IMG/VR virus record: IMGVR_UViG_3300046780_001084
Span: 1-54,672 of that record
Source: a virus
Strand: one strand, 5' to 3'
DNA: 54,672 nucleotides
Shown one piece after another: positions 2,304-46,647 of this stretch. How positions within the stretch are numbered: the stretch's first letter is position 1; each line of letters begins with the position of its first letter. The notes below the pieces were generated by a model. It saw only the letters and a list, made by a program, of their open reading frames with translations. It did not search any database and was not told the DNA's origin. The translations under genes were made by a program, and so were the position numbers.

Positions 2304-3169
2304 TCGGGCCCCCTCATGAGAACGCCCGCGGCGGCGAACAGCTCCTTGGAAATCTCGGCACTCACCTTCCACCGAGACTGGTCCCCGATCGTCTCGTAGA
2401 TAACCTCTTTGACGCCAGCTTGAATAATGGCCTTTGCGCAATCCTTGCACGGCGCCATGGGGGTGACGTAGATGGTGGTTCCTGCCGTGGAGACTCCAAA
2501 CCGAGCTGCTGTTAGCAGTGCATTTTCCTCGGCATGAATGGTCCAGTCATACTTCGCGGGACGCTCGTATCGCTCAGGTAGGTTGTCGTTCACCCCACGG
2601 GGGAATCCGTTGTACCCGGTCGAAATGATATTGCGATCACGCACCAAGACCGAGCCAACCTGAGTCGACGGGTCCTTCGACCGTGTTGCGACGTGTTCTG
2701 CGATTTGAATGAAGTATCGATCCCAGCTGCGACGCGGGTCATGCCGCATGAGGTACGCCATGGCAGACCGCAGGCTGAGAGTCGAGTCTTGAAAGATCCC
2801 AATGGCTCTGTTACAGCCCTGGCAGAGCAGTCCTCGAACTTTCCCAGTCTTGTGGTCGTGGTCAACAGCCAGACGCTCCCCCTCCGGAGGAGGGTTGTGA
2901 CAGATGGCGCACGTGCCACCCTGAAGTTCATTCAGTGCAGTGTGCTGCTCGGGAGAGAGATCGTAATAATTCTTCATTCGCCATTCCCACGCTTTCGCCT
3001 TGTACTCGGGACGCAGGTGGTACTTTGCATCCCGAGCGCGTGCGTTGGCGTCCTTTCGCTTACACTCGCCACAGCGGGGACCGCCCGGATCGATAGACTT
3101 CTTCCCCAGGTCAAATGACGTCCCGCACTTACAAAGGTGCGGGACGCGTTTGTTAGGCTTCCTCGCCAC
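2300..3169 (-). CDS. Endonuclease VII (HNH)-dCMP deaminase fusion
   Basis: 289 residues with two clear domains. Residues 1-140 are a recombination-endonuclease-VII-like HNH nuclease: zinc pairs C87/C90 and C116/C119, the catalytic DHDH at 103-106, N120, and the usual tail GIFQDSTLSLRSAMAYL. Residues 146-289 are a complete deoxycytidylate deaminase: SWDRYFIQIAEHVA start, HAEENAL zinc site at 212-218 and PCKDCAKAI at 240-248. The deaminase would turn dCMP into dUMP for dTTP synthesis. The internal Met141 sits where a free deaminase would start, but I see no good ribosome site before it. The region looks poorer in GC than its neighbours, which suggests acquisition of the nuclease module. Confidence 0.88.
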   Translation of the reverse strand: MARKPNKRVPHLCKCGTSFDLGKKSIDPGGPRCGECKRKDANARARDAKYHLRPEYKAKAWEWRMKNYYDLSPEQHTALNELQGGTCAICHNPPPEGERLAVDHDHKTGKVRGLLCQGCNRAIGIFQDSTLSLRSAMAYLMRHDPRRSWDRYFIQIAEHVATRSKDPSTQVGSVLVRDRNIISTGYNGFPRGVNDNLPERYERPAKYDWTIHAEENALLTAARFGVSTAGTTIYVTPMAPCKDCAKAIIQAGVKEVIYETIGDQSRWKVSAEISKELFAAAGVLMRGPE

Positions 3170-30106: not shown

Positions 30107-30196
30107 GGAAACGACGTCGCATGTCGGTTTTGCGCAGCAGGTTGCTAACTTGCCGGGCCCGCAAGGGCCCCGAGAGTTCGACTCTCTCCGTTTCCT
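30107..30196 (+). tRNA. tRNA-Ser(GCU)
   Basis: Class II tRNA, about 90 nt, 5 bases after the previous tRNA. Acceptor GGAAACG/CGTTTCC is perfect. The anticodon arm is GCAGG-TTGCTAA-CTTGC, giving GCU for AGC/AGU codons. The variable arm is GGGCCC-GCAA-GGGCCC, a 6-bp stem with a GNRA loop. The T-arm GAGAG-TTCGACT-CTCTC is perfect. CCA is not encoded. Together the two tRNAs read the two frequent serine codons of this GC-rich genome. Confidence 0.88.
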
Positions 30197-30207
30197 CTGG
30201 CGACACG

Positions 30208-43581: not shown

Positions 43582-44694
43582 TTACTCGTCGTCTGCTGAG
43601 TTCTTGGCGTCTTCCGCGTCGAACACGCCACGCGTGTCGCGAGCGAACAGCTCCGCCACGATCTCGTCGCACAGAGCCTGGTCCTTCTTCAGGTCTTCCC
43701 AGACCTTCTCCTTGCCGCGCCACTCGTGCGCGCCGAACTTGTACTGGCTCAGGCTCGGACGCTCGATGATGCCACGGTTGACGCCGAGGGTGAAGACCTC
43801 TTCCCAGGCGTTAACGAGCCCCGTGCGGTGACCCAGCGTGAACTCGCCGACGCGACCCTTAGGACCGCAGGACGAGTCCTTCATCGTCACCTTGATCTTG
43901 TGCGCCGTCTTCTCGCCCTTGGAGTTCTTGTCCATGTCCGTGGCGTCGGTGTCACGGAACTCCTTGCCGTCCAGAGACACGCGGCCTTCGACGTTGCGGT
44001 TCGGCTCGACGTACACGAAGTACTCACCGAAGTGCTGGAGCGCGAACGGGAGGGCCATGCGGACCTTGTTGCCGCGCTTCTGCTCCAGAGCGTCCATCTC
44101 CACGCGGACCTGGCAGACGACCAGCAGCGCGATCTTGTGATCGCGGATGGGCTTGAGGATGCGCTTGAACCCGCGGCCGAGCGTACGTGCCTCGTCGGCG
44201 ACGAACTGCTTTTCGAGCGTGGTGGCCTCGTTGGCCGACATGCCCTGGATGCTGTTCGCCGAGTCGATGATGATCGCCGCGATGTTCAGCCCGTCCTTGC
44301 ACATGGCCGGGATGTCGTTGCTGATGCGGTCGAAGATCTCGACGGGGTCGTTCGTCTGCCAGACGATGAACCTCTTCGGGTCGATGCCGAAGTCCTTCGC
44401 CAGCTCTTCCGGCGTGGCCTGCACCTGCGCGCGGAACTCGGCGTCGACCTTGATGACGAACGCCGTGGGATCGTTCTGGTGAATCCAGCCAGCGCACATG
44501 TTCGAGATGAGCGACTTGCCGCCCTTCGGGGGTCCGCCGAGGATGACGGAGTAGCCGCGCGGGAGACCGTGGCCCTTGCCGAAGATGAAGTCCACCGATG
44601 GGCTGGAGGTGCGGATGACGTTCTGGTGCGGGTCGAGCCATTCGGTGACCGCGTCGTCGTACTTCGTGAGTGCTGCGAACCAATCTTTTGCCAT
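43582..44694 (-). CDS. UvsX/RecA-like recombinase, 370 aa
   Basis: Walker A is LGGPPKGGKS (52-61) and Walker B IAAIIIDSANSI (139-149, Asp144). LLVVCQVRVEMDALEQKRGNKVR continues with the L2-like region. The size matches T4 UvsX rather than bacterial RecA. It would pair homologous DNA for replication restart and repair. The acidic C-terminus (FDAEDAKNSADDE) is also typical. The UvsY-like gene lies just upstream. ATG at 44694. Confidence 0.85.
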   Translation of the reverse strand: MAKDWFAALTKYDDAVTEWLDPHQNVIRTSSPSVDFIFGKGHGLPRGYSVILGGPPKGGKSLISNMCAGWIHQNDPTAFVIKVDAEFRAQVQATPEELAKDFGIDPKRFIVWQTNDPVEIFDRISNDIPAMCKDGLNIAAIIIDSANSIQGMSANEATTLEKQFVADEARTLGRGFKRILKPIRDHKIALLVVCQVRVEMDALEQKRGNKVRMALPFALQHFGEYFVYVEPNRNVEGRVSLDGKEFRDTDATDMDKNSKGEKTAHKIKVTMKDSSCGPKGRVGEFTLGHRTGLVNAWEEVFTLGVNRGIIERPSLSQYKFGAHEWRGKEKVWEDLKKDQALCDEIVAELFARDTRGVFDAEDAKNSADDE

Positions 44695-44706: not shown

Positions 44707-45342
44707 TTACCTGTCGTAGCGAGGTTTTCCGTAGCCCGTCTTGGGCGGGTTTGTGGTTGGTGCTGGGGTTGGGGTTGTGGTTGGCGCTGGGGTGGACTGT
44801 GGTGGACGTGGTTGCGAGAACGGCTTCTGACTGCCGCCACCGCTGAGGTTGGGGTTGTTGATGCGCGTGGACATGTCGTAAGCGTCCTCGCCCATGATCT
44901 TCTTGACCGACGAGTAGGAGTTCTCGAAGGACTTCATCTTGCCCTTGAGCCACTCCTGCGCCGCGAAGATCTGGTCGACGCGATCCTGGAGGGTCTCGTA
45001 CTCGGGGTCGAGGACGATGACGGCGTCGCGCGAGTCCTTCGTCGAAGCGACGTTGCGGGTTTTGAGGAAGTCTTCGGCCTCGTAGAGCAGGATGCGCGCC
45101 TTGCGCTTCTCGACCTGGGCCTTCGCCTTGACGAGGTCGGCCGCGAGGCCCTTGACGAGCTTGTCCGTTTCGAGCCACGCGTAGTTGAACGTGTACAGCA
45201 ACTCCGGCGCCTTCACCGGAGTGACCATGGCGACCTCGCGCTGGCGCGCTTCGGCGGTCAGAATCTCTCCGAGGTTGAGGATCCGGTCGGGCAGGTCCTT
45301 CGTCGCACTCGGAAGCGAAAGTGTCGTACCTTCGATGAGCAT
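44707..45342 (-). CDS. Possible UvsY-like recombination mediator, 211 aa
   Basis: Helix-rich residues 40-160: LLYTFNYAWLETDKLVKGLAADLVKAKAQVEKRKARILLYEAEDFL, then STKDSRDAVIVLDPEYETLQDRVDQIFAAQEWLKGKMKSFENSYSSVKKIMG. The W/Y spacing and the basic helix then acidic Asp-Pro-Glu section resemble UvsY proteins, which load recombinase onto SSB-coated DNA. The C-terminus is a Pro/Thr tail (PAPTTTPTPAPTTNPP). The assignment leans on its place between the UvsX-like and SSB-like genes. The leader is structured and may hide the ribosome site. Confidence 0.55.
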   Translation of the reverse strand: MLIEGTTLSLPSATKDLPDRILNLGEILTAEARQREVAMVTPVKAPELLYTFNYAWLETDKLVKGLAADLVKAKAQVEKRKARILLYEAEDFLKTRNVASTKDSRDAVIVLDPEYETLQDRVDQIFAAQEWLKGKMKSFENSYSSVKKIMGEDAYDMSTRINNPNLSGGGSQKPFSQPRPPQSTPAPTTTPTPAPTTNPPKTGYGKPRYDR

Positions 45343-45447
45343 GTGTCCCCTGTTGAAAGGGGTCGGGTGTTTAACTATGACAGATCCTCCCTGCGAGGAT
45401 CACATCGTCCGGAGACATCCTCCGGCACTATGCCCCGACCGGAGGTG
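45343..45447 (-). promoter_or_regulatory. Structured 5' leader of UvsY-like gene
   Basis: Read 5'-3' on the minus strand: GGTCGGG (45440-45434), hairpin CCGGAG-GATGT-CTCCGG, hairpin GATCCTC-GCAGG-GAGGATC (7 bp), then CCCGACC (45367-45361), which can pair with the first segment. That closes a three-way junction. Just after it, CCCC can pair with the GGGG of the ribosome site 8 bases later. The two CCCC and CCCGACC pairings share bases 45361-45362, so the two states exclude each other. This looks like a riboswitch or protein-sensing leader; no ligand is known. Confidence 0.55.
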
Positions 45448-46647
45448 TTAGGCGGGCTGCTGTGAGTTGAAGAACTTGAGGAAGTCCTCGTCGTTCATGT
45501 CGAGCGGGTTCTGCGCGGGAGCAGCATCCGCCGCCGGGGCGGGAGCCACCTCGGCCTTCTCCGCCGCCTTCGCCGCCGTGACGGCCGCAGCCGCGCGGCG
45601 TGCCGCCTCTTCCGCCTTGGCCTTCGCCTCGGCCACGACCTTGGCCTTCGCCTCGTCCGCCTTCTTGGCGAAGATCGCCTCGGCCTTGGCCCTCATCTCC
45701 GGCGTGATGGTCGGAGCCGACACGGTGCCGGTGGCAGCGATGCCCTGGGGAGCCGTGCGAGCGGCAGGCGGCGCATCGCCGACCTCCCCCTCTTCACGGT
45801 CGGAGGCCTGGACCTGGCGCGAGACCTGCTGCTCGCGCGCACCGAAGATCTTGTCGACCGCCTCGGGCGAAGCGTCGCTCTGGACGAGGGCGTAGATCTG
45901 CTCCTCGCTCAGCAGCGTGCCGCCGAGAGTCGCCAGGTCGCGGCACTCCTTGAGGCCGCGGGCCTGCTCTTCGGGGGTGAGAGGCGCCAGCTCGATGTCG
46001 AGCGAGCCCTTGCGCTCGCCCGGCCGCATGACGACCTCGACGACGTCGGGGACGCTGAAGCCGTCACCCAGGCGCTTGATGTTGAACCACACGCCCTGGT
46101 CGAGATCGAGAGCGTCGATCTGCTGGTTGTCCAGCAGCTCGGCGATCTTGGAGTCGATGCCCTTCTTGTGCGTCTTGTGGTTGATCTTGTAGTCGCCGAA
46201 CGAGCGGTCCTTGTACATCACGTTGATGTACCACTTGCGCTCCGGCGCGTGCTGCTGGAGCCAGAGGTCGAAGGCCTTCATGTCGGGGTCGGCCTTGACC
46301 GCCTTATCGTCCATGCCCTTCGCCTTCAGCACGGCCTCGTAGGCGGTGGCTTCCTTCTCCTTGGCGCGGAAGTTGTCGCACTCCGGGCACGCCTGGCGGA
46401 CCATGCCGCTGCGGCGATCCTTGTCCTCGATGCAGCGGAACGGCCGCACCGTGGTCTTCGTGGCGTCGCTGCGCGAGATGCCAGCGTAGCCCCAGTGGGT
46501 CGTGTAGTAGACCGCCCACTTGCCCTCGTCTCCCAGGGAGTGCATCGGGGGCATGATGCGGATCACGTTGTCCCCCGGCCCCTTGCCCGGCTTCCCGGTC
46601 TTCTGAAACTTCTGATCGCTGCCGTACTTCGCTTTGCCGTATCCCAT
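45448..46647 (-). CDS. gp32-like single-stranded DNA-binding protein, 399 aa
   Basis: Starts MGYGKAKYGSDQKFQKTGKPGKG, basic. DNVIRIMPPMHSLGDEGKWAVYYTTHWGY leads to FRCIEDKDRRSGMVRQACPECDNFR, an OB-like strand pattern with a Cys pair that may hold zinc, as in T4 gp32-type SSBs. Residues 260-385 are Ala/Lys/Glu-rich and helical. The C-terminus DMNDEDFLKFFNSQQPA is an acidic tip typical of SSBs, which recruits partner proteins. Position beside polymerase, UvsX-like and UvsY-like genes fits. The long A-rich structured leader parallels the gp32 autoregulation region. Confidence 0.7.
   Translation of the reverse strand: MGYGKAKYGSDQKFQKTGKPGKGPGDNVIRIMPPMHSLGDEGKWAVYYTTHWGYAGISRSDATKTTVRPFRCIEDKDRRSGMVRQACPECDNFRAKEKEATAYEAVLKAKGMDDKAVKADPDMKAFDLWLQQHAPERKWYINVMYKDRSFGDYKINHKTHKKGIDSKIAELLDNQQIDALDLDQGVWFNIKRLGDGFSVPDVVEVVMRPGERKGSLDIELAPLTPEEQARGLKECRDLATLGGTLLSEEQIYALVQSDASPEAVDKIFGAREQQVSRQVQASDREEGEVGDAPPAARTAPQGIAATGTVSAPTITPEMRAKAEAIFAKKADEAKAKVVAEAKAKAEEAARRAAAAVTAAKAAEKAEVAPAPAADAAPAQNPLDMNDEDFLKFFNSQQPA

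Follow-up and report, generated by a model that had tools for sequence, protein, structure and literature searches.

Sequence comparison points to a conserved three-way-junction RNA motif in front of a UvsY-like phage gene and in unrelated phages

The ssb–uvsY spacer

The DNA analyzed here, a virus record of 54,672 nucleotides (IMGVR_UViG_3300046780_001084) which is denoted the window throughout, carries on its minus strand a spacer of 105 nt between the stop codon of an ssb gene and the ATG of a UvsY-like gene. The complementary stretches within this spacer raise the question of whether it encodes a functional RNA and, if so, of which kind. The surrounding genes are the following:

45448..46647, minus strand: ssDNA-binding protein gene (ssb), 399 aa, upstream of the spacer; the homologue in Myxococcus phage Mx1 is annotated 'ssDNA binding protein'
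44707..45342, minus strand: UvsY-like recombination mediator gene, 211 aa, downstream of the spacer; assigned by comparison of an AlphaFold model with the PDB
43582..44694, minus strand: UvsX/RecA-like recombinase gene, next in the operon (phrog_97, E 3.6e-20)

The recombinase gene is followed by a primase gene, and the order polymerase, unknown, SSB, UvsY, recombinase, primase is common to the window, Mx1 and an IMG/VR phage. By sequence, the 211-aa protein has neither a Pfam match above the cut-off nor a convincing match in the PDB. Its structure, predicted from 13 homologues with a mean pLDDT of 78.7, has the UvsY fold: the best 14 PDB matches are all T4 UvsY, the top ones (4ZWT and 4ZWQ) with a probability of 1.00 and a TM (target) of 0.66–0.74, at an E-value of only about 0.04. 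Because the predicted structure matches T4 UvsY in these first 14 matches, the label 'UvsY-like', under which the gene had been introduced in a preceding sequence-only reading of the window, is a fair one.

Architecture of the window RNA

The spacer harbors the following elements, all on the minus strand:

45361..45440, minus strand: whole conserved motif, a three-way junction, recognized by a model from another phage (R1, E 4.2e-6) and by a leave-one-out model (R3, E 2.4e-10)
45434..45440, minus strand: 5′ strand of the closing stem P1, GGUCGGG; P1 covaries in 7 of 8 pairs
45426..45433, minus strand: conserved joining strand GCAUAGUG (alignment A11)
45409..45425, minus strand: hairpin P2, CCGGAG-GAUGU-CUCCGG, 6 bp, then ACG; the most conserved arm
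45383..45401, minus strand: hairpin P3, GAUCCUC-GCAGG-GAGGAUC, 7 bp; length and sequence differ among copies
45368..45382, minus strand: joining strand ending in UUAAACA (alignment A11)
45361..45367, minus strand: 3′ strand of P1, CCCGACC, pairing 7 of 7 with GGTCGGG, then CCUUUC
45347..45362, minus strand: alternative hairpin CCCCU-UUCAAC-AGGGG over the ribosome site, −6.7 kcal/mol; not conserved in relatives

The closing stem of GGTCGGG (45440–45434) and CCCGACC (45367–45361) together with the two perfect hairpins enclosed by it, as described in the sequence-only reading, is present in full. The same holds for the CCCC (45362–45359) that can pair with the GGGG of the ribosome site (45350–45347) and overlaps with P1 at 45361–45362.

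Folding of the spacer and the ribosome site

The folding energy by itself is only mildly unusual. The window leader folds at −42 kcal/mol compared to a shuffled mean of −36 kcal/mol (z −1.54), and the exact gap reaches a z of −2.29. Among 500 dinucleotide shuffles, 6 produce a 7-bp Watson-Crick stem that encloses two or more hairpins with −30 kcal/mol or lower.

From the two pairings a translational switch with mutually exclusive folds had been postulated. On paper a competition between P1 and the CCCC/GGGG helix would exist, as with downstream sequence the two predicted folds lie within 1.7 kcal/mol of each other. Exclusive they are at the shared positions 45361–45362, but in a 112-nt fold P1 coexists with a weaker, shifted hairpin at the ribosome site. 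The Gs of this site are mostly paired in both folds, their hairpin being weaker with P1 formed (−1.7 versus −6.7 kcal/mol), and therefore the predictions do not amount to a translational switch that is cleanly on or off. Across the relatives no consistent occlusion of the ribosome site is found, and the CCCC/GGGG helix lies outside the conserved motif.

The ssb–uvsY gap in related phages

Recombinase-based searches yielded 69 non-redundant loci with an ssb–uvsY pair. Almost no gap separates the two genes in 29 of these, and gaps of 25–160 nt are present in 34, of which 29 contain a hairpin of −12 kcal/mol or better. In 18 of these 29 hairpin-bearing gaps, at least four T follow within the next eight bases. 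Compact terminator-like hairpins occur at 15 of the 69 ssb–uvsY sites versus 5 of 786 random sites. These hairpins are for the most part unrelated in sequence between phages, and in one pair with 95.5% identical recombinases (L028 and L065) the hairpin is cleanly present in one phage and absent in the other. In the nearest relative of the window (80% recombinase identity) the three-way junction is absent and one terminator-like hairpin is found. The motif is missing from the nearest relatives, which have a terminator-like hairpin or no spacer, and in most other relatives, too, the gap contains a plain hairpin of this type or nothing.

Judged by this same-gap comparison, leaving aside the copies in L031 described below, the element would count as a branched terminator variant. 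The window RNA would then be only a branched-loop version of the post-ssb terminator or attenuator of the family, trimming transcription so that SSB exceeds UvsY and UvsX. T4 biology makes such an excess plausible. Many relatives, among them the nearest one and Mx1, have terminator-like hairpins of unrelated sequence at the same place, and branched ones with good U-tracts exist in three loci (L022, L055 and L087). However, the branched terminators of the relatives fail to match the motif model, homologous copies of the motif are also located at places without an ssb gene, and the core is conserved beyond the needs of a terminator, with three U in eight in the tract of the window. We regard this explanation as unlikely.

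Several of these gaps show features of their own. Terminator-like hairpins directly 3′ of ssb are seen in L004, L016, L017, L020, L023, L024, L026, L034, L035, L037, L054, L064 and others. In L022, L055 and L087 an outer stem ahead of uvsY surrounds at least two inner hairpins and is followed by a good U-tract, the sequence being unrelated to the motif. A tandem duplication of about 32 nt in the gap of L080 doubles the region with the ribosome site and start of uvsY.

Homologous copies and covariance models

In a more distant relative, L031 (IMG/VR 3300049472_000168; 46% recombinase identity), the ssb–uvsY gap contains two copies of the motif, which flank a tRNA-like segment, one on each side. 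The copies have GUGCCGGAG-N5-CUCCGGACG and the strand ending in AAACA in common with the window, whereas their closing stems are CAGGTG/CACCTG and CTGTAG/CTACAG as opposed to GGTCGGG/CCCGACC. The tRNA-like segment itself (L031:3190-3268) shows a clear T-arm and D-arm, receives no call from ARAGORN and scores 17 bits to Rfam tRNA-Sec.

The two L031 copies alone, with the window excluded, served to build a covariance model (R1), which recognizes the window at E 4.2e-6; on 70 related loci it gave nothing else convincing besides the window and its two source copies. IMG/VR was scanned with the P2 pattern and then filtered with R1, whereby nine further records were kept. Six records with P2-pattern matches (L108-L111, L120 and L121) were dropped, P1 and the tail being missing. 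Whole-record searches with a refined model (R2) revealed 15 confident copies in 11 phage records (E < 1e-11), and a model of 13 sequences with the window left out (R3) assigns 45 bits to the window (E 2.4e-10). Because P2 served as search pattern its conservation is partly imposed; P1, P3 and the joining strands were absent from that pattern. Second copies in three records (L106 972-1045, L115 1713-1792 and L113 524-600) were found without the exact pattern and broaden the core with real changes, including a compensatory CGGTGC/GCACCG in L113. Since several of the records are close pairs (L107 and L112 are identical here, L118 and L119 are one base apart, L106 and L115 are related), the independent lineages number about eight.

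R2 detected no motif in 45 related viral records searched whole, in phage Mx1 and in one bacterial genome; among the related phages searched whole the motif is confined to the window and L031. An uninformative sample of 31 Bacteroidota genomes gave no match, the exact pattern of the two window hairpins had no match in viral contigs, and blastn searches of INPHARED phages and PLSDB plasmids with copies of the motif returned no full copy, with short chance-level matches or none. Owing to its absence from the 45 other related phage records and Mx1 the motif is not fixed in the operon, and, with the window and L031 as its sole carriers among the related phages searched, ssb–uvsY expression in the family does not depend on it. 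The spread of the motif looks horizontal.

Covariation and family status

In the alignment of 14 copies, 95.8% of the cells are standard pairs, versus 74.7% in shuffled and 34–47% in slid alignments. Both-sided changes are observed in 15 of 20 pairs overall and in 7 of 8 pairs of P1, and hence the compensatory changes in the GGTCGGG/CCCGACC stem, which had been proposed beforehand as a check, are numerous. The covariation score of 0.475 compares to 0.121 for shuffled alignments, none of 500 reaching it, and to at most 0.10 for slid ones; removal of the window leaves the outcome unchanged. RNAalifold predicts the same structure unaided, on an alignment which is itself fitted to the model structure and favors it. 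In P2, 98% of the cells are paired and both sides are altered in one copy, while the G-U pairs in P3 favor the transcribed strand. A fourth pairing, CAUG/CAUG beside P1, is possible and formed to 75%.

Overall, the motif comprises about 66–80 nt with a variable P1, a conserved strand R-U-R-G-U/A-G, a near-invariant P2 followed by ACG, a variable P3 and a last conserved strand that ends in AAACA or GAUCA. The equivalent of the joining strand GCAUAGUG is mostly CAUGGUG or CGUAG(U/A)G in other copies, and the strand ending in UUAAACA in the window is replaced by AUGAAACA, UUUAAACA or UUGAUCA elsewhere (alignment A11).

The copies share one structure with compensatory changes, and independent models recognize the window, as is the case for a structured-RNA family. 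On this comparative evidence the window copy is a genuine member of a conserved three-way-junction RNA, and the predicted motif structure is real and maintained by selection on pairing. None of the families in Rfam 15 reaches its gathering threshold on the window or on the motif in other copies, the best weak match over the window motif on the same strand being Guanidine-III (10.4 versus 36 bits). Because the models recognize the window, P1 covaries, and Rfam 15 and blastn are empty, the motif is considered a real structured RNA which is apparently uncatalogued, as judged from Rfam 15 and the open PubMed Central literature. Identification of the window RNA as a decayed tRNA or a known riboswitch finds no support from ARAGORN or Rfam.

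A conserved stretch in unrelated phages might also encode a short peptide, PEE-x-SGR, or serve as a signal at the DNA level, for instance a recombination site, and in most copies P2 indeed reads PEEISGR or PEDVSGR in one frame. Contrary to this explanation, which we find hardly credible, P1 covaries and P3 contains G-U pairs. The peptide reading was rejected because stops occur early in L031, L114 and the window, P3 contains indels, and a compensatory P2 change in L113/L136 abolishes the peptide.

Genomic context of the copies

Most copies reside in spacers, several of them directly 5′ of strong hairpins. The copies in the window and L031 lie 18 and 20 nt upstream of uvsY. A copy in L031 is located about 8 nt before the tRNA-like segment, and copies in L106 and L115 are found 4 nt before tRNA-Lys. 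In the latter two records, a short GC hairpin precedes the further copies, and 48 nt separate these copies from genes that have a ribosome site; the gene in L115 encodes DUF397. The L113 copy runs onto a start codon, that of L114 is flanked by an apparent extended −10 box on one side and a strong GC hairpin on the other, and those of L118 and L119 apparently follow a gene and are themselves followed by a strong hairpin. The copy L117:4650-4719 (−) is contained, in frame, in an open reading frame of 404 aa and falls within a linker-like part of it. No common function emerges among the genes beside or downstream of the copies. That copies adjoin tRNAs, terminator-like hairpins, ribosome sites or start codons is suggestive of an element acting in cis; the lack of a shared function among neighboring genes, the position of the L117 copy within a reading frame, that of the L118 and L119 copies apparently 3′ of a gene, the confinement of the motif to the window and L031 among the related phages searched whole and the weak U-tract of the window count against it.

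The copies 4 nt upstream of tRNA-Lys in two records, and the pair of copies around the tRNA-like segment in L031, would also agree with an RNA-processing element, either a self-cleaving ribozyme or an RNase site, by which tRNAs or coding segments of phage transcripts are separated. Ribozymes adjacent to tRNAs have precedents in phages: the theta ribozymes of gut phages have an HDV-like fold with the cleavage site at the tRNA 3′ end (PMC10879173), and as structured phage RNAs often adjoining tRNAs they resemble the motif. In contrast to them, the motif is a three-way junction which mostly precedes tRNAs or resides in mRNA spacers. Moreover, the sole supported fold is a simple three-way junction, the ribozyme families of Rfam give no match, and most copies are not beside tRNAs, which makes a processing element distinctly unlikely.

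Location just 5′ of terminator-like hairpins or tRNAs is furthermore reminiscent of the put RNA of HK022, likewise a phage RNA of about 70 nt with two arms in polycistronic transcripts (PMC9378689), and the motif could similarly be an antitermination or anti-pausing RNA acting in cis on RNA polymerase. However, put is described as two stem-loops downstream of early promoters with no closing stem (PMC9378689), most copies of the motif have no nearby promoter, and homology was not found. Such a role is judged highly improbable.

Proposed function

The element had been called a riboswitch-like leader. A structured, leader-like RNA with compensatory changes in P1 is supported by the data above, while the translational switch is not. 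Riboswitches with a P1-closed three-way junction likewise have a variable P1 around conserved joining strands, and as in riboswitches some copies stand just before ribosome sites or terminator-like hairpins; several are directly followed by one of these or by a start codon, but the L119 copy is found 3′ of a gene and the L117 copy within an open reading frame. Unlike riboswitches, the motif has no Rfam match, no known ligand and no shared downstream pathway, and the pairing with the ribosome site is not conserved. Nothing was found that links the motif to SSB, UvsY or a small molecule, which had been considered as possible effectors; the other copies adjoin unrelated genes and tRNAs. Another structured RNA close to a ribosome site in the ssb region of a phage is the autoregulatory pseudoknot of T4 gene 32 (PMC3014915), yet it precedes gene 32, whereas the window RNA follows ssb and precedes uvsY.

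With a probability of about 0.5, we propose that the window RNA is a conserved phage motif which acts in cis in messages and alters read-on into, or translation of, the next gene. Position and orientation of the copies point to an effect on the segment that follows, at the level of elongation, processing or translation, and in the window the controlled step would be that from SSB to the UvsY–UvsX genes. The likeliest mechanism would be that folding of the core stabilizes P1, which may act as, or compete with, a terminator or ribosome-site hairpin. The 3′ strand of P1 is followed by U-containing sequence, CCUUUC in the window and CCUUUUUU in L031. Because of these tails and the position of the terminator-like hairpins in relatives, P1 may be a terminator or attenuator stem under the control of the core. 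Intrinsic terminators after phage ssb genes are found in the same position, and some copies share with them a U-rich sequence after P1; they differ from the motif, which has a conserved core, homologous copies elsewhere and, in the window, a weak U-tract with three U in eight (CCUUUCAA). Terminators without a U-tract have been reported in bacteria including GC-rich ones (PMC8269248, PMC8355165).

At somewhat less than even odds, the motif may represent a new class of its own, namely a portable three-way-junction aptamer or RNA-polymerase-binding element that gates the following segment in unrelated phages. If true, this would be a new class of phage regulatory RNA before tRNAs, terminators or ribosome sites. 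As a strongly covarying RNA outside Rfam in unrelated phages, located beside tRNAs and in a replication-recombination operon, the motif is a concrete candidate for a phage riboregulator, antiterminator or ribozyme of a new kind, and, being short and well delimited, it is easily tested in vitro. The case also illustrates that reading competing stems from a single genome can reveal a real RNA despite its absence in the nearest relatives.

Further structured elements in the window

Two further elements were observed in the window. At 30110-30200 (+), soon after tRNA-Ser(CGA), a second tRNA-like 3′ half (GAGAGTTCGACTCTC) is present, for which ARAGORN makes no call. At 3119-3146 a perfect 10-bp hairpin (CGTCCCGCAC/GTGCGGGACG) is found, a possible bidirectional terminator.
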